Below, one piece after another: positions 5,553 to 36,957 of a stretch of DNA of 64,000 nucleotides. Source of the stretch: Faecalibacterium prausnitzii (GTDB taxonomy: Bacteria > Bacillota > Clostridia > Oscillospirales > Ruminococcaceae); assembly GCF_003324185.1 (NCBI RefSeq), contig NZ_PXUP01000008.1:1-64000 (forward strand), written 5' to 3'. Under the pieces are notes generated by a model. The model was given only the letters and a program-made list of their open reading frames with translations. It was not told the origin of the DNA and ran no database searches. Both the position numbers and the translations under genes were made by a program. Position 1 is the stretch's first letter. Each line of letters starts with the position of its first letter.

Positions 5553-6019
5553 CAAATTACAAGTTATCCCCTTCAGTATACCACGCTTTTCCCCTGCAGA
5601 AAAGCTGCTGCACACAAAAGGCTTCTCCGGCAACTATCCGCGCCCCGGCTCATACAATCTAACAACTATGTACCGGGAGGGATATCGTGTGCTGCTGACC
5701 TTACTACAATTTTTCGCCACAAAATTTCTGTTTCTGGCGCTCCATCTGGAAAGCGGCTGCTTTCCGCGTCCGCTCACAGCCCGGGAAGAGGCCGCCGCTT
5801 TCAGCGCCCTGCACGCCGGAGATGCCGCCGCCCGGGAAAAGCTGATCCGCCACAATCTGCGGCTGGTGGCGCACATCGTAAAAAAATATTACGCCCTGCC
5901 GGGTGATCAAGAGGATCTTGTTTCCATCGGCACCATCGGGCTGATGAAAGCGGTAGATACCTTTGATGCCACACGCAAGGCGCGGTTTTCCACTTATGCA
6001 AGCCGCTGCATTGAAAATG
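5553..6019. repeat. Left copy of 467-bp direct repeat (sigK 5' half)
   Basis: Aligns without gaps to 36491-36957 (constant offset 30938). I count 16 mismatches by eye, about 97% identity. In the 352 coding bases 12 differ and only one change alters an amino acid (His versus Arg). Similarity stops abruptly within the codons for I-E-N-E. Confidence 0.93.
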
Positions 6020-6192
6020 CTATCCTCTCCCCAGCGCACTTTGGGATGGAAAAGAGAATCCACCTCTTTCACGCAATGACGCATCTACGTCAAAATGGAT
6101 TTTTTGGAGCCGAGAGAACGGTTCCTTTTTTCTGCTTCAGAGGGTGTCATGTGAGGGTTGTGGTCTACCCCCTCTATACATCTTGCAGGTAA
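5668..6192 (+). pseudogene. Truncated sigK-like sigma factor (5' half only)
   Basis: The first 117 codons match the intact sigma factor at 36606 almost exactly: N-terminal leader, region 1.2/2.1 (EKLIRHNLRLVAHIVKKYYA) and region 2.2-2.4 up to YASRCIEN. At 6019 homology ends and the frame runs on for about 57 unrelated codons to a stop. Regions 3 and 4 are missing, so the product could bind core polymerase but not a -35 element. The break is at the island's left boundary. Confidence 0.9.
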
Positions 6193-6674
6193 GTTTGGCA
6201 GGCCCCCGCACTACCGTAGAGGCGCAGGCGTTCTACCGTATGTACCATTCTTACGCCGACATCCCGAACCCATGGGACCGTCTGCGTTGGTGCCGCTATG
6301 GTCTTGACCTGCTGCAAAAAGAGGTTGCTGCCATGGTGGGCATGGAGGAATGGCTCTATCAGGATCTGGAAAGCGGCATATTTCACCGCAGCTTTACGCC
6401 GGAACTTGCGGACAAGCTCGCCGCCCTTTACGGTATCCCGGTGGAGGATATTCTGGACGACTACACCCTGTTTCTGCACCGGGGCGGCGGAGCCTTCCTC
6501 CGCAGATACCGGGAGGCAAAAGGCTGGAATCGCCAGCAGCTTGCCGACCATGCAAAGGTCAGTCGGACAAGCATCCGCTGCTGGGAAAATGGACAAAAGA
6601 CCATCCGTCAGAAGTGCTTTTGCCATCTGGTGGAAAACCTTGGTTCCGATTTTCCATCTATGCTTCGCATGTGA
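6144..6674 (+). CDS. Double helix-turn-helix (XRE-type) protein, probably 5'-truncated
   Basis: The 3' two thirds encode two XRE-like segments. The first is at about residues 55-105 (KEVAAMVGMEEWLYQDLESG) and the second at about 115-160 (GWNRQQLADHAKVSRTSIRC). The apparent GTG start lacks a convincing ribosome site and the first 20 residues look non-native. Real coding probably begins near position 6195 or further upstream in a lost sequence, since this is the island edge. An internal ATG at 6240 is an alternative. A DNA-binding regulator is likely; its target is unknown. Confidence 0.6.
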   Translation: MSCEGCGLPPLYILQVSLAGPRTTVEAQAFYRMYHSYADIPNPWDRLRWCRYGLDLLQKEVAAMVGMEEWLYQDLESGIFHRSFTPELADKLAALYGIPVEDILDDYTLFLHRGGGAFLRRYREAKGWNRQQLADHAKVSRTSIRCWENGQKTIRQKCFCHLVENLGSDFPSMLRM

Positions 6675-6702
6675 GGTATGGTAATTTTTCTCCGGTCAAA
6701 CG

Positions 6703-6751
6703 AAAAAGCCTGTCTGCAAGCCACGATATGTGGCAGCGCAGACGGGCTTTC
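6703..6751. terminator. Bidirectional terminator
   Basis: Stem arms 6705-6717 and 6738-6750 (one G-U/T-C exception) enclose an inner GCCAC/GTGGC hairpin. The stem sits between the end of the HTH gene (plus) and the end of the HipA-like gene (minus) and can serve both. Confidence 0.75.
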
Positions 6752-6796
6752 GTTATGGAATCATTCTGTTTCAATTATTCTGATATTCGCTCTGAC

Positions 6797-7873
6797 TTAC
6801 ATGGCGTTCCGTAAAACACGCAGTCGTTCTTCAAACGTTGCTTTCCATGCCGGATGCTCGGAGAATACGGTGTGCTCCACCTGACGGACTTGGTTCAGTC
6901 CGATGTTCCGCACCGCTTCCACTGCAGCATCTTTTTGGCTCAGATGGCGTTTTCCCACGGTCAGACAGTTTGCGCCTTCTGGCGTGTCGTACTGCTGAAA
7001 CGCCCGGTTGAAGTCCATCAGGTCATGCAGACGGATGGGCTGATTGGTTTCGTTGTCTACCAGCAGACCCCAATTTTCCCAATGACGGTCGGTATTGCCC
7101 ACCAGATAATCCAGAATGTTCATCATATAGTAGCCGGGAGCATCCAGCTCTAAGATCTTATCCAGCGTATTCCAATCACGGTTCGTGCAGTAGACGTCAT
7201 AGGCTGCATAGGTCACAAGACTATATCGCTGAGATGTCATGATTTTGCTGATAGAAACCAGCTCATTTTCAAACATTCCCTGCTCATACAGTACCTGATG
7301 GCAGTCAAAGCACCGGCAGATTTTGCTTGCCAGCACTTCACGTTCCACCGCATCCCTGCCACCATCCTTGTAAAGATAGAAGCCATCCTCTTTTCGCACC
7401 CACGCCTTGGGGTACAAGCCGCCCGTAGACAGGTCATTTGCCAGAAGATGGGCGTTTATCACCGTCATTTGGTGCCCCCGCAGCGCAATATCCACAAGCG
7501 CATTGCTTAAGGAGTGTGCAAAAAGGTTGATATCCTCGAATCGAATCTTCTCGTTTTCTTCTTTCACCCAGAACACATCCAGCAAAGACAGACAATGGTA
7601 GGATAATGCAATCTGTGCTCGTTCCCTGTCCGTAACACTCTGAGATGCACCGATACTGTTCAGGATTTCCTTGGCGTAGGTGCGATCCAACGTCAACATC
7701 CGGGAGGCGCACCAATAGTAAAAGTTCGTTACATTATTGATGCGCTCGTCAAAATCATCCGATTCCACCAGAACCAGATCATAGGGCATGAAATCCTCGA
7801 GGCAGACCCTGCATTCCCCTGTCGTGCTGAGTTGTGCCACACAGCTTTCCCGGTGCATGATCTCGTAAAACAT
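6797..7873 (-). CDS. HipA-like serine/threonine kinase domain protein
   Basis: The C-terminal half has the HipA kinase signature: LVGNTDRHWENWG (catalytic loop N-x-D-R-H-x2-N, near residue 260) and LMDFNRAF (metal-binding DF motif). The N-terminal half is not recognised. GGAGGG abuts an upstream in-frame ATG at 7882 with no spacer, so the ATG at 7873, 9 nt downstream, is preferred. HipA kinases phosphorylate translation factors such as GltX and cause growth arrest. No intact HipB-like antitoxin gene is adjacent; only a short unrecognised coding scrap lies upstream. The kinase may be a standalone type. Confidence 0.75.
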   Translation of the reverse strand: MFYEIMHRESCVAQLSTTGECRVCLEDFMPYDLVLVESDDFDERINNVTNFYYWCASRMLTLDRTYAKEILNSIGASQSVTDRERAQIALSYHCLSLLDVFWVKEENEKIRFEDINLFAHSLSNALVDIALRGHQMTVINAHLLANDLSTGGLYPKAWVRKEDGFYLYKDGGRDAVEREVLASKICRCFDCHQVLYEQGMFENELVSISKIMTSQRYSLVTYAAYDVYCTNRDWNTLDKILELDAPGYYMMNILDYLVGNTDRHWENWGLLVDNETNQPIRLHDLMDFNRAFQQYDTPEGANCLTVGKRHLSQKDAAVEAVRNIGLNQVRQVEHTVFSEHPAWKATFEERLRVLRNAM

Positions 7874-7950
7874 GGTTTTCATCCCTCCCTGCGTTCTGTG
7901 TCTTGCTCTGTATTTATATTACCTTCTTTTTTCACGGGACGCAAGAGCTT

Positions 7951-8032
7951 TTACTTTTCAAAAAGCTTTTTCTGCTGCTCCATCAGGACGGTTTCGATAC
8001 GCTCTTTCAGCAAAAAAATGATTTTATTTTGT
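7951..8032 (-). pseudogene. Short C-terminal coding remnant upstream of the HipA-like gene
   Basis: About 26 in-frame codons end in ETVLMEQQKKLFEK and a TAA stop, with a TGA just upstream and no usable ribosome site. The lysine-rich helical ending looks like a protein C-terminus. It could be the tail of a lost partner of the kinase gene, but it is too short to assign. Confidence 0.25.
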
Positions 8033-8063
8033 CAGCAAAATTCCAAAAACTTATGTAACACAA

Positions 8064-8143
8064 AAAGCCCCACGCTCAACGCTGCCTCTGAATCTGACCG
8101 TCTCTGGTCAGAGCAGAAAAACATATGTTGAGCGTGGGGCTTT
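8064..8143 (-). terminator. Long nested-hairpin terminator
   Basis: A perfect 17-bp inverted repeat (8064-8080 and 8127-8143) encloses a second 7-bp hairpin (8093-8099/8106-8112). The left outer arm is followed on the minus strand by TTTTT. It begins 3 nt after the stop codon of the 70-residue gene. Confidence 0.8.
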
Positions 8144-8145
8144 GT

Positions 8146-8358
8146 TTATCGGCTCGGCTGCCAGCCGGGCTTTTGGTGTTCTTTGGGTTTGTAGGTTCCT
8201 TTGGTAGTATCGATCACCGCCTGCAGCAATTCGAGCTTCTGCCATGTGGGGCAGTTCAGACGGTCGATTTTTTCGATCACATAGTTGGCGTGGGCGGTTG
8301 CGACCCGTTTTCCGAGTTCGTCCCATCCCTCTTTCGTTTTGGGGTAATGTACCACCAC
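8146..8358 (-). CDS. Small hypothetical protein of mobile-element type, possibly frameshifted at its 5' end
   Basis: A 70-residue product opening with two GTG codons, without a good ribosome site. In another frame just upstream, GGAGG precedes GTG and codons reading SEPCERVPP. One extra C in the five-C run at about 8363-8367 would join that frame to IEVVVHYPKT and give a protein about 13 residues longer with a proper start. Either a single-base deletion has broken the start or the GTG is used. It follows the MazF-like gene; function unknown. Confidence 0.55.
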   Translation of the reverse strand: MVVHYPKTKEGWDELGKRVATAHANYVIEKIDRLNCPTWQKLELLQAVIDTTKGTYKPKEHQKPGWQPSR

Positions 8359-8442
8359 TTCAATGGGGGCACTCTTTCACATGGCTCACTCACCTCCGAT
8401 TACATCGCTATCACCTCATTTTTACGGGTTACTGGTTGTCCG

Positions 8443-8826
8443 CTATTCGCTGCGGTTTCCGCTCAGAACGTTCAGAGCCAGACTGACCAGCAAAGCCATA
8501 TCAATGCGGAGCATTTCAGCCTTGCTGGCATAGCCCATAAAGCGTTCAATGCGGGATTTATCGATCGTGAAGATCTGCTCCAGAAGAATCATGGACGGTT
8601 CTTCAAAGGCCGGGTTGGAATCCACCAGCACATGGGTGGGCTGGTTTTTCTTCTTTTCCGTCCGGGTGGTAACAGTTGCAACGATCAATGTAGGCGAATG
8701 ACGGTTTCCAATGTTGTTCTGCAGAACTACCACAGGGCGTTTCCCGCCCTGTTCCGAGCCGATATGCGGCTCCATGTCTGCATAGTAGATGTCCCCTCTG
8801 AGATATCTCCAATTGTTCGGTAACAT
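8443..8826 (-). CDS. MazF/PemK-type toxin endoribonuclease
   Basis: A 127-residue protein of the PemK/MazF fold. It opens with RYLRGDIYYADMEP, then GGKRPVVVLQN, the conserved beta-barrel strand, and IVATVTTRT. Members cleave mRNA at short sequence motifs. The ATG at 8826 follows AAGGAGG by 9 nt. No MazE-like antitoxin is encoded next to it: the genes on either side are the ParB-like protein and the 70-residue protein. That resembles copies carried in clostridial conjugative elements, where the toxin stands without a classical antitoxin. Confidence 0.88.
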   Translation of the reverse strand: MLPNNWRYLRGDIYYADMEPHIGSEQGGKRPVVVLQNNIGNRHSPTLIVATVTTRTEKKKNQPTHVLVDSNPAFEEPSMILLEQIFTIDKSRIERFMGYASKAEMLRIDMALLVSLALNVLSGNRSE

Positions 8827-8911
8827 AAAAATCAACCTCCTTTTTATGTAAGAAACAGCCGCCGCAGACGGATGCCACGACGGCTGTTGTTCAGGAGGTA
8901 AAACGAAATTG

Positions 8912-9652
8912 TCAGTTTTTCAGCGGCAGACTCATCTCACGGCTGGCACCGTTATAGATGCGAAGAATCTGCCGCATGTGGCGGTTTGCAGAACTGCCGG
9001 TGTCTTTCTGAGCCAGCTGCGTGATGGTTTTCGGGTGTGTCCTTGCCAGCTGCTGCACCAGCCGCTCCCGGCTGTACTCGCCCTCGTATACGGAGATGAA
9101 GCGGGCCACACCACGGATTACACCGGCAAGGTAGGAATCCACATTGCCCTTCCACGCCTCGTTGATGATGTGAAGCATCTCGACGTAACGCTCACAGCCA
9201 TACTGCTTGTACAGTTCGTATGCCGTTTCGATGCAGTAGATTTTCCAAGGTGCCCGGATGCCGTCATAGGCAAATTCCACACCGGCATTCGACGTGATCC
9301 CCACAAAGTAAAGTGCATCCGGGTTTTCGGCCACCAGATTTGCACGAAGGCGTTCGCCCGCCGTCAGGCAGGTAGCATTGCCCGTCTGAATCGCAAACAG
9401 CGTTGCTTCGTCTTCTTTGGTAAGGCCATAGAAGACTTTGCAGCGAATCGTCACATCCTTGCCACCGTTACAGGTTCGACGTGCTTCTACCGTGTTCTGC
9501 CCATCCAGAATGTAGCCATTCCATGTGATGATGGGATTCAGAAGACGACCCTCGGCAATGATGTTCTGCTCAAGCTGCTGTTCTTCCTCAAACTGCAGCG
9601 GCGGAATTTTGCTTTGGAACTCCGGGTCAATTTTAAGCTGGCTCAGTTTCAC
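8912..9652 (-). CDS. ParB/Srx-like nuclease domain protein
   Basis: A 246-residue protein with an N-terminal ParB-like domain: IPPLQFEEEQQLEQNIIAEG followed by LNPIITWNGYILDGQN, the conserved box at about residues 40-55. The C-terminal half is helical and unassigned. It starts at GTG after AAGGAGA and overlaps the end of the upstream zinc-binding gene by 20 bp, so translation is probably coupled. Proteins of this type are common on plasmids and conjugative elements. No ParA partner is present, so a role in partition is not supported. Confidence 0.75.
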   Translation of the reverse strand: MKLSQLKIDPEFQSKIPPLQFEEEQQLEQNIIAEGRLLNPIITWNGYILDGQNTVEARRTCNGGKDVTIRCKVFYGLTKEDEATLFAIQTGNATCLTAGERLRANLVAENPDALYFVGITSNAGVEFAYDGIRAPWKIYCIETAYELYKQYGCERYVEMLHIINEAWKGNVDSYLAGVIRGVARFISVYEGEYSRERLVQQLARTHPKTITQLAQKDTGSSANRHMRQILRIYNGASREMSLPLKN

Positions 9653-9875
9653 GTCGGTTCTCCTTTCCGGTCATTTTCGATTTACGGACAATGGGCTGAA
9701 CGTAGTAGTCAAACCCATATCGTGTCTGGCAATACGTGCAGACATCCTTGACGAGCTGCCTGGGGTCGGCTCTGCGAAGCCGGACGCCCTTTGCGTCCAA
9801 AAATGCCCCTCGGCAGACGGCGCACAAAGTTGTCAGGGTGGATTCATCCACCTTTTTTGTGGTCTTGCGGTTCAT
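9633..9875 (-). CDS. Small zinc-ribbon-like protein
   Basis: An 80-residue basic protein with two CxxC pairs, CAVCRG near residue 18 and CTYCQT near residue 47, consistent with one structural zinc. The ATG at 9875 follows AAAGGAG by 8 nt. A hairpin with a T-run ends only about 20 nt before this start, so expression may depend on read-through or on a promoter within that stretch. It is the first gene of the ParB-like/MazF-like block. Specific function unknown. Confidence 0.7.
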   Translation of the reverse strand: MNRKTTKKVDESTLTTLCAVCRGAFLDAKGVRLRRADPRQLVKDVCTYCQTRYGFDYYVQPIVRKSKMTGKENRRETEPA

Positions 9876-9893
9876 TTGCGTACTCCTTTTCGC

Positions 9894-9937
9894 TGATATA
9901 TAAAAACGCCGTCCGTGGTTACCCTCGAACGGCGTTT
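9894..9937 (-). terminator. Terminator hairpin upstream of the zinc-ribbon gene
   Basis: Nine-bp arms 9904-9912 and 9929-9937 are followed on the minus strand by TTTTTATAT. The hairpin lies at the 3' end of the candidate RNA and just before the gene at 9875, so it may act as an RNA 3' end or as an attenuator. Confidence 0.75.
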
Positions 9938-10240
9938 GGAAAAGGTTTTGTATGGTTTCTCTTAATTTGCCCCCGGCACCCCTGAGAAAGGGAAACAATC
10001 AGGCGTTGGATTTGCACCACTCCATTGGCCTCTCGGCCACCCCGTCTTCTTTATGACCGGGCCGCGAATTACGGAAGTATCATTATCTGGAAATACCTGA
10101 AGCTGCATATTCAATTTTCAAGGTCCGCCCGGCTGCGGCTCCCGCTCCCTTTCGGAGGTGGGCCGCTGCCGTGACAATAGTGTATCGTACTTTCGAGCAA
10201 AAGTTTATGGACTCGTAGTCCAAGTCACCCACCCTCTTAG
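9895..10240 (-). ncRNA. Candidate structured non-coding RNA or long leader
   Basis: No reading frame is convincing here, yet the minus strand folds in many places: GGACT/AGTCC (10209-10221), GCGGC/GCCGC (10135-10139/10162-10166) around CTCC-GAAAG-GGAG, and TGGCC-GAGA-GGCCA (10026-10039) with a GNRA loop. It ends in the terminator at 9894-9937. One stretch resembles a serine-tRNA D-arm but no T-arm or acceptor stem follows. It matches no riboswitch I know. The strand is chosen from the terminator and the downstream genes. Confidence 0.5.
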
Positions 10241-10279
10241 TCCATATATTGTATACAACAGTCCCAAAAAGCAAAAAAA

Positions 10280-10322
10280 TCCCGCCTGAAAAGCAAAACC
10301 TTCGCTTTGCCCTCAGACGGGA
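10280..10322 (-). terminator. Intrinsic terminator
   Basis: Arms 10280-10289 and 10313-10322 (TCCCGCCTGA/TCAGACGGGA) with a seven-T run on the minus strand. It lies about 20 nt after the stop of the broken gene at 10341 and shares sequence with the hairpin at 11432-11468. Confidence 0.75.
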
Positions 10323-10340
10323 TGTCTTTCGACACGACTG

Positions 10341-10628
10341 TTATAAATTCAAAAAGCCATTGTCCAGCATTTCCGCGCTCAGGCTGCCCGCATCCGGGGT
10401 GCCTGTCATGATGCCGCACGCTCCGTGCGCTACCATTTCGCGGGCGCGCTGCCCGGCTTTTCCTGCCAGCTACGGTCCGCTGAGAAAGACAACGCCTTTT
10501 TCCCGGCTGGGGAAAGCATCCGGCTGCACACAGTCCGCAAAATGCGGCGGCACCAGCAGCAGCCATGGCCCGCCCAGCTGGATCTGCTGTAGCTGACGAA
10601 GGAAATGCGCATCGCCGGAAAATTGCAT
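10341..10628 (-). pseudogene. Unrecognised gene broken by an in-frame TAG
   Basis: One frame reads coherently from an ATG at 10628 through PWLLLVPPHFADCVQP and GVVFLSGP, meets a TAG at 10470-10472, and continues as GQRAREMVAHGACGIMTG to a TAA at 10341. The conserved-looking sequence on both sides argues for a single nonsense mutation in a once longer protein; the 5' part also looks lost, as there is no ribosome site. I do not recognise the family. Confidence 0.6.
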
Positions 10629-18310: not shown

Positions 18311-18336
18311 TCTGTCCACCTCGCAGTTGATACTTA

Positions 18337-18356
18337 TTGATACTATATAGTATCAA
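18337..18356. promoter_or_regulatory. Perfect 20-bp palindromic operator
   Basis: TTGATACTATATAGTATCAA is fully self-complementary. It shares the ACTATATAG core with the paired sites upstream of the MarR gene at 36198-36245. Its position just before the 73-residue gene suits a repressor site. Confidence 0.6.
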
Positions 18357-18961: not shown

Positions 18962-18963
18962 TT

Positions 18964-22016: not shown

Positions 22017-22026
22017 GACCGGCGTT

Positions 22027-26076: not shown

Positions 26077-26241
26077 AGTCAAATTCCCTTCTATTGTATC
26101 ATCCTGGAATTCTATCTAAAGTTGTTTTCATACAAAGCGTTATTAAATTTTATTTAATCTTATCACATCCGGCGGGGCGGTGCAAGGGGTGCTCTTGTTT
26201 CCTGTCCGCGCAGCTATTATAATAATAGGTACCGAAAGAAG

Positions 26242-27123: not shown

Positions 27124-27138
27124 AATAAAGGAGTTCTA

Positions 27139-27591: not shown

Positions 27592-27603
27592 TTTTTCTCC
27601 TTC

Positions 27604-28191
27604 TTACGACAGTTTGATCTTCAAATCTGCCAGCAGATTCACCGCTTCCGGCAGGGAAAATTTCGCATCCTTCAGGCGGCTACCCAGAATGTCCACCTTA
27701 TAACCGGCGGCATCCCGGAAATCCGCCTTGCGCAGGTCACACTGGTAGAACTCCGTTTCGTGAAGTTCTACACCCTTGAAATTCGCCAGCTGCATCTCGC
27801 ATTTGGCAAACATGGAGCCGACAATTTCGTTGCCGTCCGAAAAGTCGAAGCGGTTAAAGTTCATTTCGGTGAAGGTGTTATATTTCAGACTGCACTCTTT
27901 CAGCGTGTGGATAGGGTCCGGGAAGGCACCGTTGGACATCAGCGGTGCCCACTCGATTTCATTCAGGCGGCAGTCCTCAAAATCCAGCGACTGCACCGAG
28001 GAATGGGTACTGCGCAGACCTGTGATCTCACACCGCACGAATTTGCACTCATTCAGCGTGGTATGATCCAGTTCGCATTTGGTAAAGGAGCAATCCACAA
28101 ACACGCAGTCGGTAAAGTCGCAGTCCTCAAAAGTCTCCTCGGTGAACGACAGGTCAGCAAACCGTTCACCTTCACAATAACGCTCTGTCAT
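27604..28191 (-). CDS. Pentapeptide-repeat protein
   Basis: A 195-residue protein built of A/C-(D/N)-(L/F)-x-x repeats (for example FEDCDFTDCVFVDCSF at about residues 21-36), expected to form a quadrilateral beta-helix. Some members protect gyrase from quinolones; others are effectors of unknown role. It ends 12 nt before the PTH2 start and probably shares its transcript. Confidence 0.82.
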   Translation of the reverse strand: MTERYCEGERFADLSFTEETFEDCDFTDCVFVDCSFTKCELDHTTLNECKFVRCEITGLRSTHSSVQSLDFEDCRLNEIEWAPLMSNGAFPDPIHTLKECSLKYNTFTEMNFNRFDFSDGNEIVGSMFAKCEMQLANFKGVELHETEFYQCDLRKADFRDAAGYKVDILGSRLKDAKFSLPEAVNLLADLKIKLS

Positions 28192-28203
28192 AAAATTCTC
28201 CTG

Positions 28204-28305
28204 TCAGCGCAGTTCTTCCAACAAGGCCGTGCAGCCTTCCAGCTCTTTCCTGCCGTATTGCAGCAGCGTACCGTCAATATCGCTGCAAATCAGTTTGATT
28301 GACAT
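28204..28305 (-). pseudogene. HAD hydrolase N-terminal remnant
   Basis: Thirty-three codons read MSIKLICSDIDGTLLQYGRK and end in ALLEELR plus stop. DIDGTLL is motif I of HAD phosphatases of the Cof type, which are normally about 270 residues. The rest is missing. It overlaps the end of the DUF523 gene. Confidence 0.7.
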
Positions 28306-28751
28306 TTTCCGTCCTCATTTTTCAAGATAATTTTAGGCAATTCCCCGGCATCCAGAACACGGATGCCTTCGTCCATCAGCATCTTGGCAAAAACACCCTG
28401 TCCGGGAATCTTTGTCCCGGAAAACGTTCCGTCGTAGATTTCCTTCACGCCGCAGCTGGGGCTGCGGGATTGCAGGATGGCAAGCTCCACCCCATTTTCT
28501 TTTGCGATGGCAAGGGCCTTGGCTGCGCCCGCTCGGAACTCCCGGTCCACATTGATGCCCTCTTTGTTCGTGACAACGCCCTGCACGATTTCCGCCGGGC
28601 ACCGCGGTGTGGGCAGGCCGCCCAAAACCTCCGGGCAGACCGGAACCACCTGATGCCCCCGCGCAAAATCACAGACCGCCTGATTGTAATTGTTTCCGCC
28701 GCTGTATTTGCAGTTTTCGCTCAGCAGGCAGGCGCTGACCAGAATCTTCAT
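28290..28751 (-). CDS. DUF523 protein
   Basis: A 153-residue member of DUF523, with KILVSACLLSENCKYSGGNN at the N-terminus, VPVCPEVLGGLPTPR, LQSRSPSCG and GVFAKML. The conserved cysteines suggest metal or thiol chemistry, but the biochemical role is not known. It is full length for the family. The 3' end overlaps the HAD remnant by 16 bp. Confidence 0.85.
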   Translation of the reverse strand: MKILVSACLLSENCKYSGGNNYNQAVCDFARGHQVVPVCPEVLGGLPTPRCPAEIVQGVVTNKEGINVDREFRAGAAKALAIAKENGVELAILQSRSPSCGVKEIYDGTFSGTKIPGQGVFAKMLMDEGIRVLDAGELPKIILKNEDGKCQSN

Positions 28752-28837
28752 TGTTGCGCGCTCCGTTTTTCAGATACTGAATCTTTTACCTATTCTACCA
28801 CGCTTTTGGGCATTGAAAAAGAGGATTCTGCTTTTTC

Positions 28838-28990
28838 CTATCCCCATACCGGGAGGTCCGCCGTAATCTTTTCTAATTCCTGTGCAAGAAACGTCAGTCT
28901 TTCCCTCAGATGGTTGTTATGCGGTGCATCTCCGTTCAGCAGATATCCATCCCATTTATACACAGTTCCGAACCAAAAGAACCGCATAAT
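28838..28990 (-). pseudogene. Unrecognised C-terminal remnant
   Basis: A coherent frame (MRFFWFGTVYKWDGYLLNGD, then LRERLTFLAQELEKI, stop) of about 50 codons has no ribosome site and opens just after a terminator. It looks like the end of a longer protein; the family is not recognised. Confidence 0.4.
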
Positions 28991-29007
28991 GTTCTCATCA
29001 AAAAACA

Positions 29008-29030
29008 GGGAGTGACATCAAATCACTCCC
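29008..29030 (-). terminator. Intrinsic terminator
   Basis: Eight-bp stem GGGAGTGA/TCACTCCC followed by a T-run on the minus strand, 18 nt after the stop of the superoxide reductase gene. Confidence 0.8.
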
Positions 29031-29047
29031 CGTTTGCATTGATTGTA

Positions 29048-29425
29048 TCAGAGTTTCGTCATCCAGAGCCCATGCAGATTGCAGTATGCGTAAACGGCCA
29101 CCGGCTTTTCACTGCCCAGTTCAAAAACAGCTTTGGGTGCCTGCCCCAGATTCAGATAGCGGATCTGTCCGCCGTTCTCAGTCTCCACAAAAATCCACTG
29201 AATATAGTGAACATCCGCCATGGGGTGCTCCACCGCGCCCACTGTGACCGTGAGACGACTGCCGGAAAGCTCTGCCACCGGCAGATGCTTCTCGCCGCTG
29301 GCTTCCACCGTATTGGGAACCAGCTCTTTCATTTTCTCCCCGCAGCAGACCAGCGGAACGCCTGCGTTATGGATGGTAGTGACGAGGTTGCCACAGTGAT
29401 TGCAGATGTAAAACTTTGCCTTCAT
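29048..29425 (-). CDS. Superoxide reductase (desulfoferrodoxin type)
   Basis: A 125-residue protein that reduces superoxide to peroxide in anaerobes. The N-terminal desulforedoxin domain has CNHCG (residues 8-12) and CCGEKM (27-32). The catalytic iron site is formed by EKH (about 45), EHPMADVHYIQW (His pair) and CNLHG near the C-terminus. The ATG at 29425 follows GGAGG by 9 nt. It is monocistronic with its own terminator and fits an obligate anaerobe. Confidence 0.9.
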   Translation of the reverse strand: MKAKFYICNHCGNLVTTIHNAGVPLVCCGEKMKELVPNTVEASGEKHLPVAELSGSRLTVTVGAVEHPMADVHYIQWIFVETENGGQIRYLNLGQAPKAVFELGSEKPVAVYAYCNLHGLWMTKL

Positions 29426-29530
29426 ATCGAAATCCTCCATCGGAATGTTATCGGTGTGTTTCTTGTGTCTATATGATAACATTTCCTATTTATGATTTCT
29501 GTGACTGAATCACGCAAAGCGTTTTTGGGC

Positions 29531-30256
29531 TCACTTGCAATAAATCTCAATGGCTTTCTGCGCAAATTCTGCGGCACCGGCACCGCCGGCAGCATTGATG
29601 TTTTCCGTAAATGCTCCGCCTGCCCCATACATCTGCCCCAGCTGATTCAGGATCACCTTGGAACAGTTATAGTAGTGCTCTGTGATAAACTCCTGCAGCT
29701 TCTTCACCTGTGCCTGCACTTCAGAGTCCGCCGGGTCTTTGCTCTGCATCCCGCCGAATGCCGCCACGATGTCCATCAGTTGACTGCTCATGTCCTTGAC
29801 CTCTTTCTCGGTCTTATGGGCAGTTTTTTCCTCAAACTCTTTGTATTCCGGCGTTTCGCCCCATTCCTTTTGGGCCTGCTCGGTATACTTCTTGATCTTC
29901 TGCGTATCAAATGCGGTAAAGTCCATAACCATTCCTCCTGTGGATCGAATTTTCTGCGCAAGGCCAATCAGATCTTCAAGATGCTGCTTTTTCAATGTCA
30001 GAAGTGTGATCTGCTGTTCCAGTGCTTTCTGCCGGTCAAAAGCAGGATTCTCCACGATTTTCTGGATGTCCTTCAGCGGAAATTCCAGTTCCCGGAACAA
30101 TAAGATCTGCTGCAAACGTTCCAGCGCGGCATCGTCATACAGCCGATAGCCTGCTTCGGTACGGCCCGCCGCGCGCAGCAGACCGATTTTATCGTAATAT
30201 TGCAGGGTCCGGATGCTCACTCCGGTCCGCTTGCTCACTTCGTTCACCGTCATCAT
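29531..30256 (-). CDS. MerR-family regulator with TipAS-like C-terminal domain
   Basis: A 241-residue activator. The N-terminal HTH (TVNEVSKRTGVSIRTLQYYD, residues 3-22) and RTEAGYRLYDDAALERL are typical of MerR. A coiled segment at about 85-110 and an effector domain of the TipAS type (EYYNCS-like region YYNCSKVILNQLGQMY near 200-215) follow. TipA relatives respond to thiopeptides or other bulky drugs. No obvious target gene is adjacent. Confidence 0.85.
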   Translation of the reverse strand: MMTVNEVSKRTGVSIRTLQYYDKIGLLRAAGRTEAGYRLYDDAALERLQQILLFRELEFPLKDIQKIVENPAFDRQKALEQQITLLTLKKQHLEDLIGLAQKIRSTGGMVMDFTAFDTQKIKKYTEQAQKEWGETPEYKEFEEKTAHKTEKEVKDMSSQLMDIVAAFGGMQSKDPADSEVQAQVKKLQEFITEHYYNCSKVILNQLGQMYGAGGAFTENINAAGGAGAAEFAQKAIEIYCK

Positions 30257-30334
30257 CTTGCTGTCCTCCCTTGCGACAGCCACAGTATACGCTATGACGC
30301 TGCGTCAGGGTCAAGAGGTTTTCTGAAAAATTTT

Positions 30335-31000
30335 TCAGCCTTCCCTCTGCTCCACGATTTCCAAGCTATCCCGCCCTACATGGCAGAGCAGAAACAGCAC
30401 CCGCACACCTGCGGCCTTTGCTTCGGCCAGTGCCGTACCAAACTCCGGCTGTGTGCTGACATTTGGCCGCACCTCGGTGATGCCTTCCATCTGAATCACA
30501 AAGGCCACGGCGCACCGATACCCTGCCTGCTGTGCCTGCGCCAGCTCGTGCAGGTGCTTCACGCCGCGCTCGGTAGGTGCATCCGGGAAGTAGCCGATAC
30601 CGTCCACTTCCAGTGTGCAGCCCTTGACTTCCATCAGATACTTTTGCTCGCCCTTTTCCATATAAAAGTCGATGCGGGACTTGCCATAGGTGAATTCCGG
30701 CTTGATATAGTCGTAGCCCTGTTTTGCAAGCCACTCTCCTACTACCTTGTTGGGTGCCTGACTGTCCATGTTGACCCAACCAAGCCCCTGCTTATGTACC
30801 GCCACAAGGCCGTATTTTGTTTTGCGTTTCGGGTTATCCGACACTTCCAGCCGAACCGCCGTGCCGGGCAGCAATAGCTCTTTGCACCGCCCGGTGTTCT
30901 TGACATGGACGGTTTCCACTGCTCCATTCACTTCTACATGGGCAATAAAGCGGTTGGGACGGTCAACAAAAATGCCGTCTACGATTTCTCTGTATTTCAA
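30335..31000 (-). CDS. sfsA: SfsA family DNA/RNA nuclease-like protein
   Basis: A 221-residue SfsA: GIFVDRPNRFIAHVEVNG at the N-terminus, NTGRCKELLLPG, then YGKSRIDFYM and LMEVKGCTLE, which match the family's PD-(D/E)xK-like core, and FPDAPTERGVKHLHEL. First described as a sugar-fermentation stimulator in E. coli; a nuclease activity is suspected. Full length. Confidence 0.92.
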   Translation of the reverse strand: MKYREIVDGIFVDRPNRFIAHVEVNGAVETVHVKNTGRCKELLLPGTAVRLEVSDNPKRKTKYGLVAVHKQGLGWVNMDSQAPNKVVGEWLAKQGYDYIKPEFTYGKSRIDFYMEKGEQKYLMEVKGCTLEVDGIGYFPDAPTERGVKHLHELAQAQQAGYRCAVAFVIQMEGITEVRPNVSTQPEFGTALAEAKAAGVRVLFLLCHVGRDSLEIVEQREG

Positions 31001-31014
31001 TCTTTACTCCATTT

Positions 31015-31095
31015 TCAGTACAGGATTCGGGAGCCATGCCCATCCTGTTTACCAAGATACAGTTCCACGACCATCCTGCCGCTTTCACTGTTGCA
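31015..31095 (-). pseudogene. C-terminal fragment of the 3522-4586 protein family
   Basis: Twenty-six codons read LCNSESGRM then VVELYLGKQ and end SRILY plus stop. The protein at 3522-4586 ends LCNTENGRM, IVELYLGKQ, SRILY. Only this tail is present; its 5' side runs into the macrodomain gene in another frame. Confidence 0.7.
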
Positions 31096-31612
31096 GAGTT
31101 CTTGCCTGATACACCCGCTCCGTCCGGGCATCGAAGCAGCAGAGAATCACCTGCATGGCGTAATCCGCGTGATCTTCCAGCCACTGTGCCACTGTTTTGA
31201 CTGCAATCTCTGTGGCATCCTCCAGCGGGTAGCCATACACGCCGGTCGAAATTGCCGGGAACGCAATGCTATGGACATCATGCTCTTTGGCAAGGTTCAG
31301 CGAATTGCGGTAGCAGTCCGCCAGCTGCGCGGCATCCTCTGCTGTGCCGGAATATATCGGGCCTACCGTATGAATGATGTACTTTGCTTTCAACCGGTAT
31401 CCCTTGGTGATTTTTGCTTCTCCGGTGCGGCAGCCGTGCAGCGTGCGGCACTCCGCCAACAGTTCCAGCCCTGCTGCCCGGTGGATGGCACCATCCACAC
31501 CGCCGCCACCCAGCAGACTGCGATTGGCCGCATTTACGATGCAGTCACAGTCCAGTTTGGTAATATCACCCTGCACCACTTGAATCTGATTTTTTACTTT
31601 TTCAGAAATCAT
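31085..31612 (-). CDS. Macrodomain ADP-ribose-binding protein
   Basis: A 175-residue macrodomain with [19 protein letters not shown] (residues 11-29), [16 protein letters not shown] (loop 1), and [13 protein letters not shown] (loop 2). These residues bind ADP-ribose; bacterial homologs deacetylate O-acetyl-ADP-ribose or remove ADP-ribose from acidic residues. The ATG at 31612 follows GAGGTG. It lies 10 nt after the isochorismatase gene and is likely co-transcribed. Confidence 0.92.
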
Positions 31613-31622
31613 TGTAAACACC

Positions 31623-32150
31623 TCACTTTTTGAGCAGCACCAGCGCCTTGTCCATGGGCACACAATCGGCATAGCGGTCCGGCCAGAGGAATTCATTGTA
31701 ATAGTGGTAGCTCTGCTCCCCCGTCATGTACTCGTTGTCCTGCGTGGAATTTGCATAGGCAGGAACGATCATGTGCAGACCATGCTCAAAGCCCGCCTCC
31801 ACCGTTGCATTGATGCAGAAGTCCGTCATGATGCCGCAGACCATCACATCTTTTTCGCCCTTTTCCGTCAGATATTCCAGCAGGCCGCTCTCTTTTTTGA
31901 ACGCACTGCATACGGTTTTGACGAACCGTTTTTCAGTCAGCAGCGGTGCAAACCCGGAATAGACCTCAAATTCATCGTCTCCGATGGAAAAGCCTGTACC
32001 GGGCCCATCGTCATGCTGGACATAGACGACCTCGATTCCCTGTTCGCGGGCAGTCCGGATCAATTCCCTGATGTTGCTGACAAACTTTTCAAACGCGTAC
32101 AGGCGTTCATCCACGATACCTTTTTGTGTATCCACAATCAGTAAAACCAT
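31623..32150 (-). CDS. Isochorismatase-like cysteine hydrolase
   Basis: A 175-residue member of the isochorismatase superfamily. The triad is Asp in LLIVDTQKG (residue 7), Lys near residue 77 and Cys in [12 protein letters not shown] (near 110), a nicotinamidase-like arrangement. A possible role in NAD salvage is suggested by the macrodomain gene next to it, but the substrate is not determined. Confidence 0.87.
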
Positions 32151-32350
32151 GTGTAAGCCCTCCTGTTTTTCTTTGAGTTCATGCTATCATAGATCGCCGT
32201 TTTCTACAAGCAGATTCGAAAAATTTACTTCTTCCAAAGCCTGTCTGATGGGTTTGTTATGGCTCCCCATCGCCGCAGCAGTCCACAGGCGGTTTTGAAA
32301 GATAAATCTCCTTCATTTTCATTTTCTGCTTAACGGCAGCAATAAAAAAG

Positions 32351-32385
32351 ACCCCCGCAGCGTATGAGTTGACGCCGCGGGGTTT
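32351..32385 (-). terminator. Intrinsic terminator
   Basis: GC-rich stem (ACCCCCGC at 32351-32358, GCGGGGT at 32377-32383) with a six-T run on the minus strand, immediately after the YczE-like gene. Confidence 0.8.
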
Positions 32386-32386
32386 C

Positions 32387-33025
32387 TCAATTGTTCGGTT
32401 TGTATTGCAGCACCTTCTGGGAGAACGTCCGATCGAAGAACTGGATGAAGGGCCCAAGGCAGAACGCACAGATCAAGGTGCCAAGGCCCACAAGGCCACC
32501 CAGCAGCCAGCACAGCAGGGCGCTGAGCGCATCGGTGAAGATGCGGCACCCGAAGTACGGGCAGGGTGTGTAGTCCCGCAGACCGAGGGAAAGGTAATCG
32601 TAGGGCGCAATGCCGAGGTCGGCGGTCTGGTAGAGCGAAGCGCCCAGCGCCGTGACCAGCACCGCCGCGATGACCCACGCCAACTGCACCGCCAGCGACG
32701 GCGCGTCGCCGAAGTGGGCGTGAATGGGGTCATAGAACGCCGTGACGATGTACCCGATGCAGATGCCGTTGACGAAGGTGCCAAGGCCGATGTACTTGCG
32801 CCCGAACCAGAATTCCAACAGGAAAAACAGGATGTTCGTGCACAGGTTCTGGGTGCCCAGCGAGATGCCGAGCAGCTCCGCCAGCCGCATGTTCAGGGCG
32901 CTGATGGAGTCGTTGCCGAGGTGGGACTGCTTGAAAAGCGCAATGCCAAGGGCGATGATGACGATGCCCGCCACCATGCCCACCACCCGCCGGGCAGTCG
33001 GTTTGCGCAATGCGGTGCCGTTCAT
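32387..33025 (-). CDS. YczE/YitT-family integral membrane protein
   Basis: A 212-residue protein with five to six membrane helices and the family features GIALFKQSHLGNDSISALN near residue 26-45 and LYQTADLGIAPYDYLSLGL near 130. YczE relatives are linked to antibiotic synthesis and membrane roles, but transport substrates are unknown. The upstream gene is only a remnant. Confidence 0.82.
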   Translation of the reverse strand: MNGTALRKPTARRVVGMVAGIVIIALGIALFKQSHLGNDSISALNMRLAELLGISLGTQNLCTNILFFLLEFWFGRKYIGLGTFVNGICIGYIVTAFYDPIHAHFGDAPSLAVQLAWVIAAVLVTALGASLYQTADLGIAPYDYLSLGLRDYTPCPYFGCRIFTDALSALLCWLLGGLVGLGTLICAFCLGPFIQFFDRTFSQKVLQYKPNN

Positions 33026-33091
33026 AGGGGATTCTCCTTTAGCGTTTCTTTTCCCCTATTATACGCCTACTTTGGGCGTGAGACAAACTAT

Positions 33092-33385
33092 TTATGGAAA
33101 GATACAACGATATACGGGGGATCCGCCTTGCCCCTTTAATCTCACCTCAATCCGTTCTTTCTCCAGCCCCTCCCCGATCACGATGAGCACTTCCTGCCCC
33201 TTGTGGATAGCGTTTGCCGTCAGGCCGTCGGCGGTGGCGTTCAGCTCCACCCAGCCGTTCTCGTCCTGTACGAAGCCTTTCGCCCGCAGCACATGGCCGC
33301 ACGCGGGGTCGGTGAAGAGGGCCGGGATATTCTGTTCGAGCTGCTGGCACGAGAGGCCCAGCTCCAAAAAGTAGGCCGAACCAAA
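33092..33385 (-). pseudogene. CobW-type GTPase/metallochaperone, C-terminal remnant
   Basis: Roughly 95 codons read ACGHVLRAKGFVQDENGWVE and IHKGQEVLIVIGEGL, as in the C-terminal domain of CobW/YjiA-type zinc metallochaperones. The GTPase part is missing and upstream sequence is IS-derived, so this is a 3' fragment left by a rearrangement. Confidence 0.65.
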
Positions 33386-33567
33386 GGCCCTATGCGGTTG
33401 GCGTTACCCGCTTCTAATTATAGCAAAAGGAGGTTCTTTTTCTACCGTTTCAACGCTACGGCTCTTTTCTTCCACAAGCATAGCTTGTGGTTTTCTCTAT
33501 GAATAAGAGCGGGGCCTTGCAAATGATATGTACCCGGTTTTCTGGACACCGGTTCAAAATTGAATAA
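33386..33567. other. Non-coding segment ending in an IS3-type terminus
   Basis: About 180 bp without a gene. The stretch near 33527-33560 (TGTACCC ... TGGACACCGG ... ) resembles the terminal sequence of IS3-family elements and precedes the transposase fragment. Confidence 0.4.
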
Positions 33568-33883: not shown

Positions 33884-34073
33884 CATGATTGTTACCATTG
33901 AAGGAATACATTTGCGACGATCTTCGGGCATAGATCATCAGCTGATCCGGGTAACTGTATTTGTACAGCCGTGCCGCTGTGATCAGAAATTCTGCCCAGT
34001 GCTCCCACTGTCGCGAAAAGCTGTCTGCCGTTTTGCAGGCAAGTGCAAGATATTCTTCGGTTTTGTTTGGCAT
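33884..34073 (-). pseudogene. N-terminal remnant of a conjugative-element helicase/methylase gene
   Basis: About 50 codons start at an ATG with a strong AAAGGAGG site: MPNKTEEYLALACKT, then WAEFLITAARLYKYSYPDQL, MIYARR. The ITAARLYKY-Y-QLMIYA pattern opens the very large SNF2/methylase proteins of Tn5252-like conjugative elements. Homology stops at the IS3 fragment, so the gene was truncated there. Confidence 0.7.
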
Positions 34074-34174
34074 TTGAAGCCTCCTTTCGGTTTCAGGGTA
34101 CAAAAAGAGCGGGCAGCCGTTTCATCGTTGCCCGCAGAGGTATGGAATGATTTACTTATTTGATAAACTGGAAG

Positions 34175-35083
34175 TTAGCGATTTCTTTTTCCGGTATTCT
34201 CTGTCCCACGGATTTCCTCATGATAGAAATAATCTACGATCACCGGATGCCCCTGCGGGACTCTGCCATAAGGCATTTCATTATCCACAAAGGGACAATC
34301 ATACTTCTTAGCCATTTCCGCAGCTTTTACTTCAAGTGCTTCAAAGTAGCTGCGGTTATGCTTGTTATAGATCTCATCGTAAAGTGGCACAAGATCAGGC
34401 TGTTTTTCGGCGATATAATCCATAATTGTCTTTTTGAAGCCGCCCCGAAGATTAAGGTTTTCGAGCCAGAACAGATCGCACTGATCCTTTACCCGCTCAA
34501 AGATGGCTTCAAAGTCCGTGATACCGGGAAATACCGGGGATACGAAACAGACTGTACGGATACCTGCTTCATATACCTGCTTCATAGCAGCGATACGGCG
34601 CTCAATGCTCGAAGCAGAGTCCATATCGTTCTTGAAATTTTCATCCAGTGTGTTGATCGACCATGAAACAGTTACACGTCCAAGCTTCTTCAGCAGATCA
34701 ATATCCCGTACCACAAGATCCGACTTTGTGCAGATCAGGATATCTGCGTTACTGCCGATCAGCTGCTCCAGAAGTTTTCTGGTATTCCCGAATTGCTCCT
34801 CCTGTGGATTGTAGCCATCTGTCACAGAACCGATGACCACCCGCTGTCCGGCATATTTCTTCGGATTTTTAATTTCCGGCCAATGCTTCACATCAAGGAA
34901 AGTGCCCCATTCCTCCGTGTGTCCGGTAAAGCGCTTCATAAAAGAAGCATAGCAATACTTGCAGGCATGTGTACAGCCCACATAGGGATTGACCGAGTAA
35001 CCGCCTACCGGCAGACTAGACTTAGTCATGATGTTCTTTGTTTCCACCTCACGAATGAGGATTCCATTTATTACTTCTTCCAT
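34175..35083 (-). CDS. Radical SAM mobile pair protein B
   Basis: A 302-residue radical SAM enzyme. The cluster motif is CTHACKYCYAS near residue 38, followed by VVIGSVTDGYNPQEEQ and ILICTKSDLVVRD, as in the photolyase-like SPL group. Its start overlaps the end of protein A by 13 bp. Together with A and a MarR gene it forms the known but functionally undefined radical SAM mobile pair system of gut Firmicutes. Substrate unknown. Confidence 0.88.
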   Translation of the reverse strand: MEEVINGILIREVETKNIMTKSSLPVGGYSVNPYVGCTHACKYCYASFMKRFTGHTEEWGTFLDVKHWPEIKNPKKYAGQRVVIGSVTDGYNPQEEQFGNTRKLLEQLIGSNADILICTKSDLVVRDIDLLKKLGRVTVSWSINTLDENFKNDMDSASSIERRIAAMKQVYEAGIRTVCFVSPVFPGITDFEAIFERVKDQCDLFWLENLNLRGGFKKTIMDYIAEKQPDLVPLYDEIYNKHNRSYFEALEVKAAEMAKKYDCPFVDNEMPYGRVPQGHPVIVDYFYHEEIRGTENTGKRNR

Positions 35084-35760
35084 GATTTCTGTACCTCTAA
35101 CACTTTATTAAATTCTTCTGGCATTTCCTGAATCATATTTTCATCCCCTATGATAGGGACAAGGTCTTCCTTCATAAACACCGGAATGCCGAGCTTATGT
35201 GCCTGGTCCGCCAGAGACCATGCCCATTCCAGCTCCGTATGAATCTTCCTGCTCTGAGCTCCGGTCATGGTGCCGACAACGATCCAATTGATTCCGGAAA
35301 GGTCAACTGTGCCGGGATCGTCGAATAACGGTTCAAAGGTAACATGGTAATGTTTTGCTCTGACGTTTTTCCGAAGGGCGTCGATACGCCACAGTTCTGC
35401 TTTCCTCGTCACCGTAACGCCAAACCATGCGTTTTCCAGATCGGTATCAAAATCCAGCAGATCAGGTCGCTTGGTCAGAAACAGAAACTGATGCTGTGGA
35501 TTTTCACGGATCTTTGCAAATACCTCGTCTCTCCATTCCGGCTTCCATCCGGAGAGATCGCTCATGCCGGTAAGAAGAAAGTTCTGCGGACGTTTCTTTT
35601 CCATCATCTTGAGCTTACCCGGAAAGAATTCAGGGTCAGCGAAGTCATCAATCATATGCCAGCGTTTCACATTATTGTGGGCATAGCAATATGCACACCC
35701 CACTGTGCAGCCGATGACGATATTCATGTTCTGAATCTGATCTTTGATACAAATACTCAT
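35071..35760 (-). CDS. Radical SAM mobile pair protein A
   Basis: A 229-residue protein with IGCTVGCAYCYAHNNVKRW (CxxxCxxC near residue 19), LLTGMSDLSGW, FLFLTKRPDLL and IVVGTMTGAQSRKI. The ATG at 35760 overlaps the TGA of the MarR gene by ATGA, so all three were translationally coupled. The TKRP segment recalls the DUF5131 protein at 26242. It probably acts with protein B on one substrate. Confidence 0.87.
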   Translation of the reverse strand: MSICIKDQIQNMNIVIGCTVGCAYCYAHNNVKRWHMIDDFADPEFFPGKLKMMEKKRPQNFLLTGMSDLSGWKPEWRDEVFAKIRENPQHQFLFLTKRPDLLDFDTDLENAWFGVTVTRKAELWRIDALRKNVRAKHYHVTFEPLFDDPGTVDLSGINWIVVGTMTGAQSRKIHTELEWAWSLADQAHKLGIPVFMKEDLVPIIGDENMIQEMPEEFNKVLEVQKSWKK

Positions 35761-36194
35761 GATTCCTGCCAACCCTCAAGATTTTTTCTGATACGGTCGA
35801 GGTATTCCTCAAACTGGGCAATTTCTTCTTCTGAAAAACCTTTGTAGTAAATACTTCCCATCTCGTTAGATACAGAATCGTACTCGCCCTTTAAGGAATG
35901 TGCTTTCTCAGTCAGAAACAAGAGTGTTTTCCTTTTATCCGTTTCAGACTGAACACGTCTTATCAGCCCTTGATTTTCCATTTTTTCCAGCATCGTCGTA
36001 AGAGATGTTATCGCTAATCCTCATTTGACCGAGAGTGACCTGATTGGGATACCATCCTCCTGCCACAGCACATAAAGAATACGCCCTTGGGCTCCATTAA
36101 ACGCATCAATATTCTTTTCACTGAGAATCTTCTCGAAAATCCGGTCTCCAAGCTGTTTTATTTTGGTGACAAGAAATCCTCCATTCATTTCCAT
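35757..36194 (-). pseudogene. MarR-family regulator of the mobile pair, interrupted by a TGA
   Basis: A single frame runs from an ATG at 36194 (AGGAG site) through GAQGRILYVLWQEDGIPIRS, meets TGA at 36021-36023, and continues in frame as LAITSLTTMLEKMENQGLIR and the dimer helix to 35757. CGA to TGA would be the simplest change. The stop falls in the DNA-binding domain, so the repressor is presumably inactive unless read through or restarted at an internal ATG at 35993. Confidence 0.8.
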
Positions 36195-36197
36195 GCA

Positions 36198-36245
36198 AAA
36201 ACTCCTATATAGTAGTTTATTAAAAACATACTATATAGGAGTTTT
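36198..36245. promoter_or_regulatory. Paired operator: 17-bp inverted repeat
   Basis: Perfect arms 36198-36214 and 36229-36245, each holding the palindrome CTATATAG, with a 14-bp spacer. It lies directly upstream of the MarR gene, the expected autoregulation site. The AGGAG in the left arm is also the MarR ribosome site. Confidence 0.7.
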
Positions 36246-36313
36246 ATTGTCAAGATTTTATATGTCTTAATAGGTAAATTCCGTTTTTTTCAATTCTCCA
36301 AACTGGAATTGTC

Positions 36314-36472
36314 TTACTTCTTGTCATTGAAGTAGATGATAAAAGCACCCATTACTGCAATAGCAATGAGCAATCCAAACTCAACCCAATTACCTAAAAG
36401 TTCAAGTCCTACGACCATACCTAAATAACCAACAATCAATGTAACGATTGCTGCCAAAATCGCTTTACCCAT
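36314..36472 (-). CDS. Small membrane protein (52 residues)
   Basis: Two hydrophobic helices at about residues 4-24 and 31-48, ending FNDKK. The ATG at 36472 follows AAGGAG. The leader closely resembles that of the 86-residue membrane protein at 19768. It is the last gene before the right repeat. Function unknown. Confidence 0.55.
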   Translation of the reverse strand: MGKAILAAIVTLIVGYLGMVVGLELLGNWVEFGLLIAIAVMGAFIIYFNDKK

Positions 36473-36490
36473 ATAATCACACTCCTTTGT

Positions 36491-36957
36491 CAAATTCCGA
36501 GTTATCCCCCTCAGTATACCACGCTTTTCCCCTGCAGAAAAGCTGCTGCGCACAAAAGGCTTCTCCGGCAACTATCCGCGCCCCGGCTCATACAATCTAA
36601 CAACTATGTACCGGGAGGGATATCGTGTGCTGCTGACCTTGCTACAATTTTTCGCCACAAAATTTCTGTTTCTGGCGCTCCATCTGGAAAGCGGCTGCTT
36701 TCCGCGTCCGCTCACAGCCCGGGAGGAAGCCGCCGCTTTCAGCGCCCTGCGCGCCGGGGACGCCGCCGCCCGGGAAAAGCTGATCCGGCACAATCTGCGG
36801 CTGGTGGCGCACATCGTAAAAAAATATTACGCCCTGCCGGGCGATCAGGAGGATCTTGTTTCCATCGGCACCATCGGGCTGATGAAAGCGGTAGATACCT
36901 TTGATGCCACACGCAAGGCGCGGTTTTCCACCTATGCCAGCCGCTGCATTGAAAACG
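36491..36957. repeat. Right copy of 467-bp direct repeat (sigK 5' half)
   Basis: Partner of 5553-6019. It includes the sigK upstream region and codons 1-117 and runs on without a break into the rest of sigK. Confidence 0.93.

Follow-up and report, generated by a model that had tools for sequence, protein, structure and literature searches.

A duplicated sigK 5' half bounds an island of accessory DNA

The stretch of Faecalibacterium prausnitzii DNA analysed here, 64,000 nucleotides from the start of contig NZ_PXUP01000008.1 (the window), contains an orphan 5' half of the sigma factor gene sigK, an island of accessory DNA, and a complete sigK. An earlier note on this DNA had described two direct repeats of 467 bp, and these were recovered at the same coordinates, 5553-6019 and 36491-36957, with 16 mismatches (96.6% identity) and an offset of 30,938 bp. 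The left copy comprises 115 bp of sigK upstream region (5553-5667, forward strand; 96.5% identical to 36491-36605) and codons 1-117 of the gene (5668-6018, forward strand), as established by translation, junction alignment and a Sigma70_r2 domain. It departs from sigK after the residues C-I-E-N, the last encoded by AAT, and thus within the I-E-N-E stretch where the note had placed the break. The right copy begins with the same upstream region (36491-36605, forward strand, delimited by the repeat alignment) and continues into a complete and, as argued below, probably rebuilt sigK of 234 codons (36606-37310, forward strand; Sigma-70 regions 2 and 4), assigned by alignment, domains and a genus-wide search, in which the break point corresponds to codon 117 (36954-36956). 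Codon comparison of the first 117 codons revealed 12 that differ between the copies, 11 of them synonymously, as the note had counted. Beyond the complete gene lies the chromosomal right flank with holA, encoding DNA polymerase III delta (37928-38953, reverse strand; Pfam DNA_pol3_delta_C), which adjoins complete sigK in 9 of 31 genomes of the genus.

Below, the window genome is designated G000 (contig C72), other genomes of the genus carry G numbers, and loci from an order-wide sample carry L numbers. Nothing points to an assembly artefact, since a complete gene plus a separate 5' half is also found on single contigs of G006, G012 and G030.

Intact elements split sigK in related genomes

The SigK protein was searched against the 31 genus genomes. 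Among the matches listed, 20 genomes have a complete or nearly complete sigK, including G002 and G024, where the gene meets the contig end at residue 217, and nine have parts only. For G018 and G027 (89% and 99% complete), the matches listed comprise only weaker paralogues, and sigK may be lost there. In five of the 31 (G005, G007, G014, G021 and G029), a 5' half and a 3' half lie in order on one contig, and the break codon, CIEN|E, is identical in all five. The 5' halves end in ATTGAAAAT, ATTGAGAAT (G021) or ATCGAAAAT (G005), and element sequence follows directly, GCTATCCTC or, in G007, GCTATACTA; the 3' halves begin with AA(T/C)GA, preceded by ...GGATAGC(A/G). Junction coordinates give inserts of 19.1 kb (G014), 27.1 kb (G007), 30.2 kb (G029), 41.1 kb (G005) and 52.6 kb (G021). 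The two ends of the elements are inverted repeats of each other, with GCTATCC.../...GGATAGC arms around an AA(T/C)G core (the left arm of G007 diverges after GCTAT), as the two arms of an attP for a serine recombinase should be. With one defined site, a recombinase at one end and inverted-repeat arms around a short core, the intact elements are, as judged from their sequences, skin-type elements. The note's analogy to the skin element of Bacillus subtilis was therefore apt, a skin-type insertion lying at the CIEN|E codon in genomes of this genus. The note placed the recombination of the B. subtilis element within an AATGA core in sigK.

The sequence that follows the orphan 5' half in the window, GCTATCCTCTCCCC... 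(6019-6066, forward strand), matches these junctions and is hereafter called end a, the left end of a skin-type element and one arm of its attachment site. The same or nearly the same sequence stands at the left junctions of G005, G006, G012, G029 and G030, and is found inverted beside the sigK 3' halves of G021 and G026. Counting the five split genomes, the left copies of G000, G003, G006, G012 and G030, and the drafts G004, G008 and G025, where a related element end lies at the same codon and the pieces are on separate contigs, the left break falls at CIEN|E in 13 of 31 genomes, which is not chance. The element appears flipped in G021, G026 and L201, and in G026, a complete sigK is preceded, at a distance of 26 kb, by an orphan 3' half accompanied by end a.

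A second sigK 5' half was not found on any of the five intact elements; in G029, a short sigK fragment (residues 8-44) lies about 29 kb upstream of the 5' half, outside the element. Among 30 element proteins scanned from the five split genomes, covering part of the element genes, there was no capsid, tail or terminase match; many had no match at all, two were further recombinases and one was VapE-like (G021). The sampled cargo consists mainly of metabolic, regulatory and defence genes. The G021 element contains two further serine recombinases (L134:15005-16696 and L135:15599-17095), so that elements may be nested, and the G007 element a BREX-type BrxL gene (L141:7284-8741), an example of defence genes as cargo. 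In G029, the recombinase has a RepA_N replication-initiator gene as its neighbour (L128:5617-6576), which hints that the element might pass through a plasmid-like circular stage. The 22-mer of attP gave 0 exact matches among IMG/VR viral contigs, providing no evidence for a free or viral form.

A second break was observed in the sigK of G029, at codons 214-217, where a 21.3-kb insert (G029:C1:2044791-2066062; L128, L185) carries its own serine recombinase. This gene is thus in three pieces, the last beside holA. Elsewhere, sigK 3' halves that stop at residues 215-218 (L208, L211, L216, L219) suggest that the gene may have been interrupted a second time there too. A degenerate DNA pattern for the 3' tail of sigK was tried and rejected: it was found only in G029 and G025 of nine genomes, and it went undetected in G135 and G302 even though their 3' halves extend to that point, so that the pattern fails outside the genus and leaves a three-piece sigK elsewhere unproven.

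One recombinase family accompanies the split gene

Each of the five split genomes encodes, at one sigK junction, a large serine recombinase (LSR) of about 570-650 amino acids, in which Resolvase, Recombinase and Zn-ribbon domains were recognised; its gene adjoins the 3' moiety of sigK in four of these genomes. At E<=1e-100, this LSR is present in exactly the five split genomes among the 31, while the Recombinase domain family occurs in 27. If the two properties were independent, a perfect overlap would arise by chance once in 169,911 cases, a figure that serves as a guide only, as the genomes are related.

The association extends beyond the genus. In an order-wide sample, 24 of 295 genomes contain an LSR match at E<=1e-90, and 19 of the 24 matches have a sigK half no more than 1.5 kb away. 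Two of the 19 are Faecalibacterium (G007 and G014); outside the genus, 17 of 22 LSR loci stand beside a sigK half (one half per locus examined), in 16 other genera. At 15 of the 19 loci, the sigK match starts at the break codon behind a GGATAGC-like element end (with variants, e.g., at L205, L207, L213 and L219), the translated reading at the break position is NEI in L209, L211 and L215, and in L201, it is the 5' half that stands beside the LSR. The remaining five of the 24 loci have no sigK nearby. The LSR tree departs from the family codes, and some families share near-identical LSRs with others (L209/L211; L210 and the partial L220), which points to transfer. The nearest phage integrase is 36.5% identical and, like the nearest solved structures, has no bearing on the question.

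The window lacks this recombinase: no LSR of the split-sigK family was found in the window genome at E<=1e-100 or in the window region at E<=1e-3. Neither a right arm nor a 3'-half junction was found in the window, where the left arm is the only one recovered, and the island thus lacks the recombinase of its own and the pair of attachment arms that a skin element has. No integrase was recognised among 29 window proteins scanned (20, some of them in the flanks, and 9 more), a set that leaves some island frames uncovered and in which some frames are probably antisense.

Truncated recombinase genes stand upstream of complete sigK

What may have become of the missing end is suggested by relatives in which a complete sigK directly follows a truncated LSR gene. 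The truncated gene retains codons 1-137 plus roughly 251-297 or 224-297 in G030 and G010, and codons 1-134 in G012. The join in G012 lies inside the LSR gene, at a 3-bp CGG common to that gene and the copied segment, and its left and right sigK copies are identical over 437 bp, with coding parts at 100%. In G030, the two copies are 96.9% identical over 452 bp, and their coding parts 98.9%. In G001, DNA of the G014-type element ends near the beginning of the LSR gene and a complete sigK comes next, and G015 shares shorter blocks; in G001, G015, G016 and G028, which have no left copy, element genes precede a complete sigK. The region upstream of sigK is altogether highly variable in gene content.

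On a tree built from holA and the SpoIVA ATPase domain of the 31 genomes (with the SpoIVA row missing for G002 and G013), rebuilt genomes pair with split ones: G012 with G005, and G010 plus G030 with G029. G001 and G015 fall into one supported group of four with the split G014 and the draft G025. The split state needs five changes on this tree, of which at least four are forced. We read the relatives' intermediates as traces of a repeated rebuilding of sigK at the LSR end of the element. The reverse order, new insertion into rebuilt sigK, has probably also happened, to judge from a 49-bp relic of the LSR gene upstream of the G029 5' half (91.8%, E 1e-14) and of the G030 left copy (85.7%, E 2e-7); as G029 is split, the break may in some cases be a fresh insertion into a gene that had already been rebuilt. 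No such relic was found ahead of either window copy.

The note had further proposed that the two window copies are alleles from different strains. This is possible for the window, whose left and right copies are no nearer each other than to copies from other genomes, but it does not extend to G012 and, largely, G030, where the copies are local. Conversely, the idea that the duplicated 5' halves are always of local origin, which is true of G012 and mostly of G030, was discarded because it does not hold for the window's group. The check for an empty site that the note had suggested found none among the four nearest genomes: G000 and G006 have a left copy and a complete gene on one contig, G003 has them on two contigs, and G023 retains a promoter remnant only. 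A complete sigK with no remnant in the 20-30 kb examined occurs only further away, in G009, G017, G019, G020 and G022.

Content of the island

The region from 6019 to 33393 (no strand assigned) consists of element remains and accessory cargo, about half of which recurs in the intact element of G029 with its order preserved. Of its 27,375 bases, 13,554 fall in blocks of 200 bp or more that are also found in G029, so that about half of the window cargo differs from that of G029; the corresponding figures are 17,307 for G006 and 16,918 for G023. The blocks that match G029 at 95-99% and in the same order are 6019-8016, 8017-8833, 9498-10348, 18105-19509, 21911-22732, 26154-28758 and 28944-33393. 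The last block corresponds to G029 region 61433-65882 and stops within the repA-like gene that adjoins the G029 recombinase; what is left of it in the window is the C-terminal part of a RepA_N replication-initiator gene (33128-33393, reverse strand; mapped from G029 coordinates), the full gene adjoining the G029 LSR. From 33918 to 36506 (no strand assigned) follows an accessory segment, 97.3% identical to G012 55490-58078, that would stand in place of the lost right end of the element. Because the similarity to G012 ends at 36506 and the sigK repeat begins at 36491, 16 bp (36491-36506, forward strand) belong to both neighbours, and similarity limits place the presumed junction there.

Just inside end a lies an XRE-like helix-turn-helix gene (6144-6674, forward strand; Pfam HTH_3) of cluster c31, which is present in four other regions. 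A gene of low GC content (about 0.42) with a GmrSD restriction domain was observed at 24277-26082, inside the island. A 33-bp promoter/operator-like motif occurs upstream of sigK at 5572-5604 and 36510-36542, at 21904-21936, and elsewhere in the genome, and the window junction falls at its edge. It was weighed as a recombination site and set aside; given that other island genes are also preceded by it, it may be no more than a promoter or operator.

Selection on sigK

Both window 5' halves are under purifying selection, with omega about 0.03. The split halves are conserved too, at omega 0.045-0.123 in G005, G007, G014 and G021 and, more loosely, at 0.17-0.22 in G029; part of this constraint predates the splits. 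The orphan left copies are unevenly constrained: left and right differ at three nonsynonymous and one synonymous codons in G030, and at four and 15 in G006. Faecalibacterium is usually described as non-spore-forming; the Spo0A C-terminal domain and the SpoIVA ATPase domain are present in 31 of 31 genus genomes. The question raised is why Faecalibacterium keeps sigK under selection.

Origin of the island

The island is probably a fossil skin-type element beside which sigK was rebuilt without excision. In the course of events that we propose, an LSR element would have integrated between sigK codons 117 and 118, splitting the gene, as it still does in five genomes. Later, the 3' half beyond the element would have acquired a second promoter and 5' half, again with no excision, and the join would have removed the LSR gene along with the right attachment arm and the greater part of the repA-like gene, in keeping with their absence from the window and with the truncated intermediates of relatives. 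The left 5' half would have stayed behind as an orphan attL. The donor copy could have been a sister chromosome that had excised the element, an option that would suit G012, or DNA of another strain, which would suit the window's group, whose copies diverge as alleles of different strains do. Homologous pairing may have extended over the 3' half and downstream DNA, the other side being joined, inside the element, illegitimately or by a few to some dozens of matching bases. Such homology-facilitated illegitimate recombination has precedents in other bacteria (PMC3240628, PMC5361080). As no LSR of this family was found, the island should no longer excise site-specifically, though it could still be lost if the two 467-bp repeats recombined homologously.

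Several observations weigh against this interpretation. No LSR stub was found in the window, in the regions examined of G003, G006 and G023 or in the 400 bp upstream of either window copy, so that a rebuild in the window rests on analogy with relatives. The window copies differ by 3.4%, mostly synonymously, and a purely local copy does not fit this; the orphan left half is without clear decay. No more than about half of the island can be aligned to the element of G029, and the direction from split to rebuilt is not proven for every pair. In the drafts G004, G008, G013 and G025, sigK was found in pieces only, most of them on different contigs, and none of these drafts has an LSR match at E<=1e-100.

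The resemblance of the window copies to alleles of different strains would also be accounted for by the main rival, entry of a sigK-bearing fragment by homologous recombination: a circle or fragment comprising 5' half, end a and cargo, freed by repeat recombination in another strain, would have entered an intact sigK in Campbell fashion through 5'-half homology, with no rebuild in this lineage. That the distance between left copy and complete gene varies among near genomes (102 kb in G006; on two contigs in G003) agrees with such an entry. We nevertheless regard it as unlikely, because it leaves unexplained both the LSR stubs upstream of complete sigK in G010, G012 and G030 and the element genes upstream of complete sigK in the genomes without a left copy. 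The note itself had favoured an incoming element that carries a replacement sigK promoter and 5' half and so regenerates the gene on integration. The observed layout of 5' half, island and complete gene is what such an element predicts, and the constraint on both 5' halves agrees with it, but the five genomes in which LSR and both arms are preserved speak against the proposal: sigK is split there, with the LSR at one end, and no second 5' half was found on the element. Moreover, the right 5' half of the window is bordered by no element arm, and the rebuilt sigK occupies the position of the LSR and attR, with LSR stubs left at the start of the new 5' half in three genomes. A regenerating element is, in our estimate, quite improbable. 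Hardly credible is a duplication of the common sort, in which sigK 5' DNA was copied within an accessory region prone to recombination and site-specific integration played no part; it would draw on the variable gene content upstream of sigK, and is refuted by the shared junctions, one codon being broken in 13 of 31 genomes with the element end next to it and an LSR at one end in five.

In Faecalibacterium, sigK might act as an island-building ratchet, in which an LSR element splits the gene, selection for sigma-K favours a rebuild whose new 5' half erases the LSR, and the rebuilt gene offers a fresh target, each cycle stranding cargo upstream and the 49-bp relics marking earlier rounds. We put this forward tentatively, as a possibility that we stop somewhat short of favouring.

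Relation to known systems

Skin elements split sigK in Bacillus subtilis and Clostridioides difficile, and prophages do so in Clostridium tetani and C. perfringens. The elements of the relatives described here resemble them in that an LSR element splits sigK and the att sites have inverted-repeat arms. The C. difficile LSR is placed directly upstream of the 3' moiety of sigK (PMC5025042), as it is in four of the five split genomes. Already known are skin elements, an LSR beside the sigK 3' moiety (PMC5025042) and a non-phage version in gerE (PMC5595907). The published skin elements are prophage-like in the passages that describe them (PMC5025042, PMC5553647, PMC10747680), whereas the cargo sampled here is mainly metabolic, regulatory and defensive. 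The B. subtilis and C. difficile sites differ from each other (PMC5025042).

A search of the open literature, in which preprints and the majority of subscription journals were not included, turned up neither Faecalibacterium skin elements nor a sigK rebuilt next to a stranded element, and novelty is to that extent provisional. A phage review that names sigK, the skin element and Faecalibacterium does not link them in the sections available, and the portions seen of PMC8340488 and PMC4430133 contain nothing on Faecalibacterium sigK. The window copy itself differs from published skin elements in having lost LSR and attR and in lying beside a rebuilt gene, for which no report was found in the literature searched.

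Two other systems bear comparison. The gin element in gerE of Bacillus cereus ATCC 10987 likewise interrupts a gene without being a phage, is of comparable size (28.6 kb) and encodes serine recombinases; it differs in its target gene and in that no rebuilt target is described in the parts of the report at hand (PMC5595907). The arrays of orphan immunity genes at type VI loci of Vibrio, as outlined in part of PMC5361080, likewise grow by recurrent recombination anchored on one side and leave orphan gene parts, with a different anchor and selected function and with no site-specific recombinase in the model. Skin elements have been known mainly from Bacillus and Clostridium-type species, and one LSR family is found here beside a sigK half in 16 other genera. 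For the skin-type element of the window, the comparison suggests a second fate besides excision, in which the host gene is rebuilt and the element would be frozen as chromosomal cargo.

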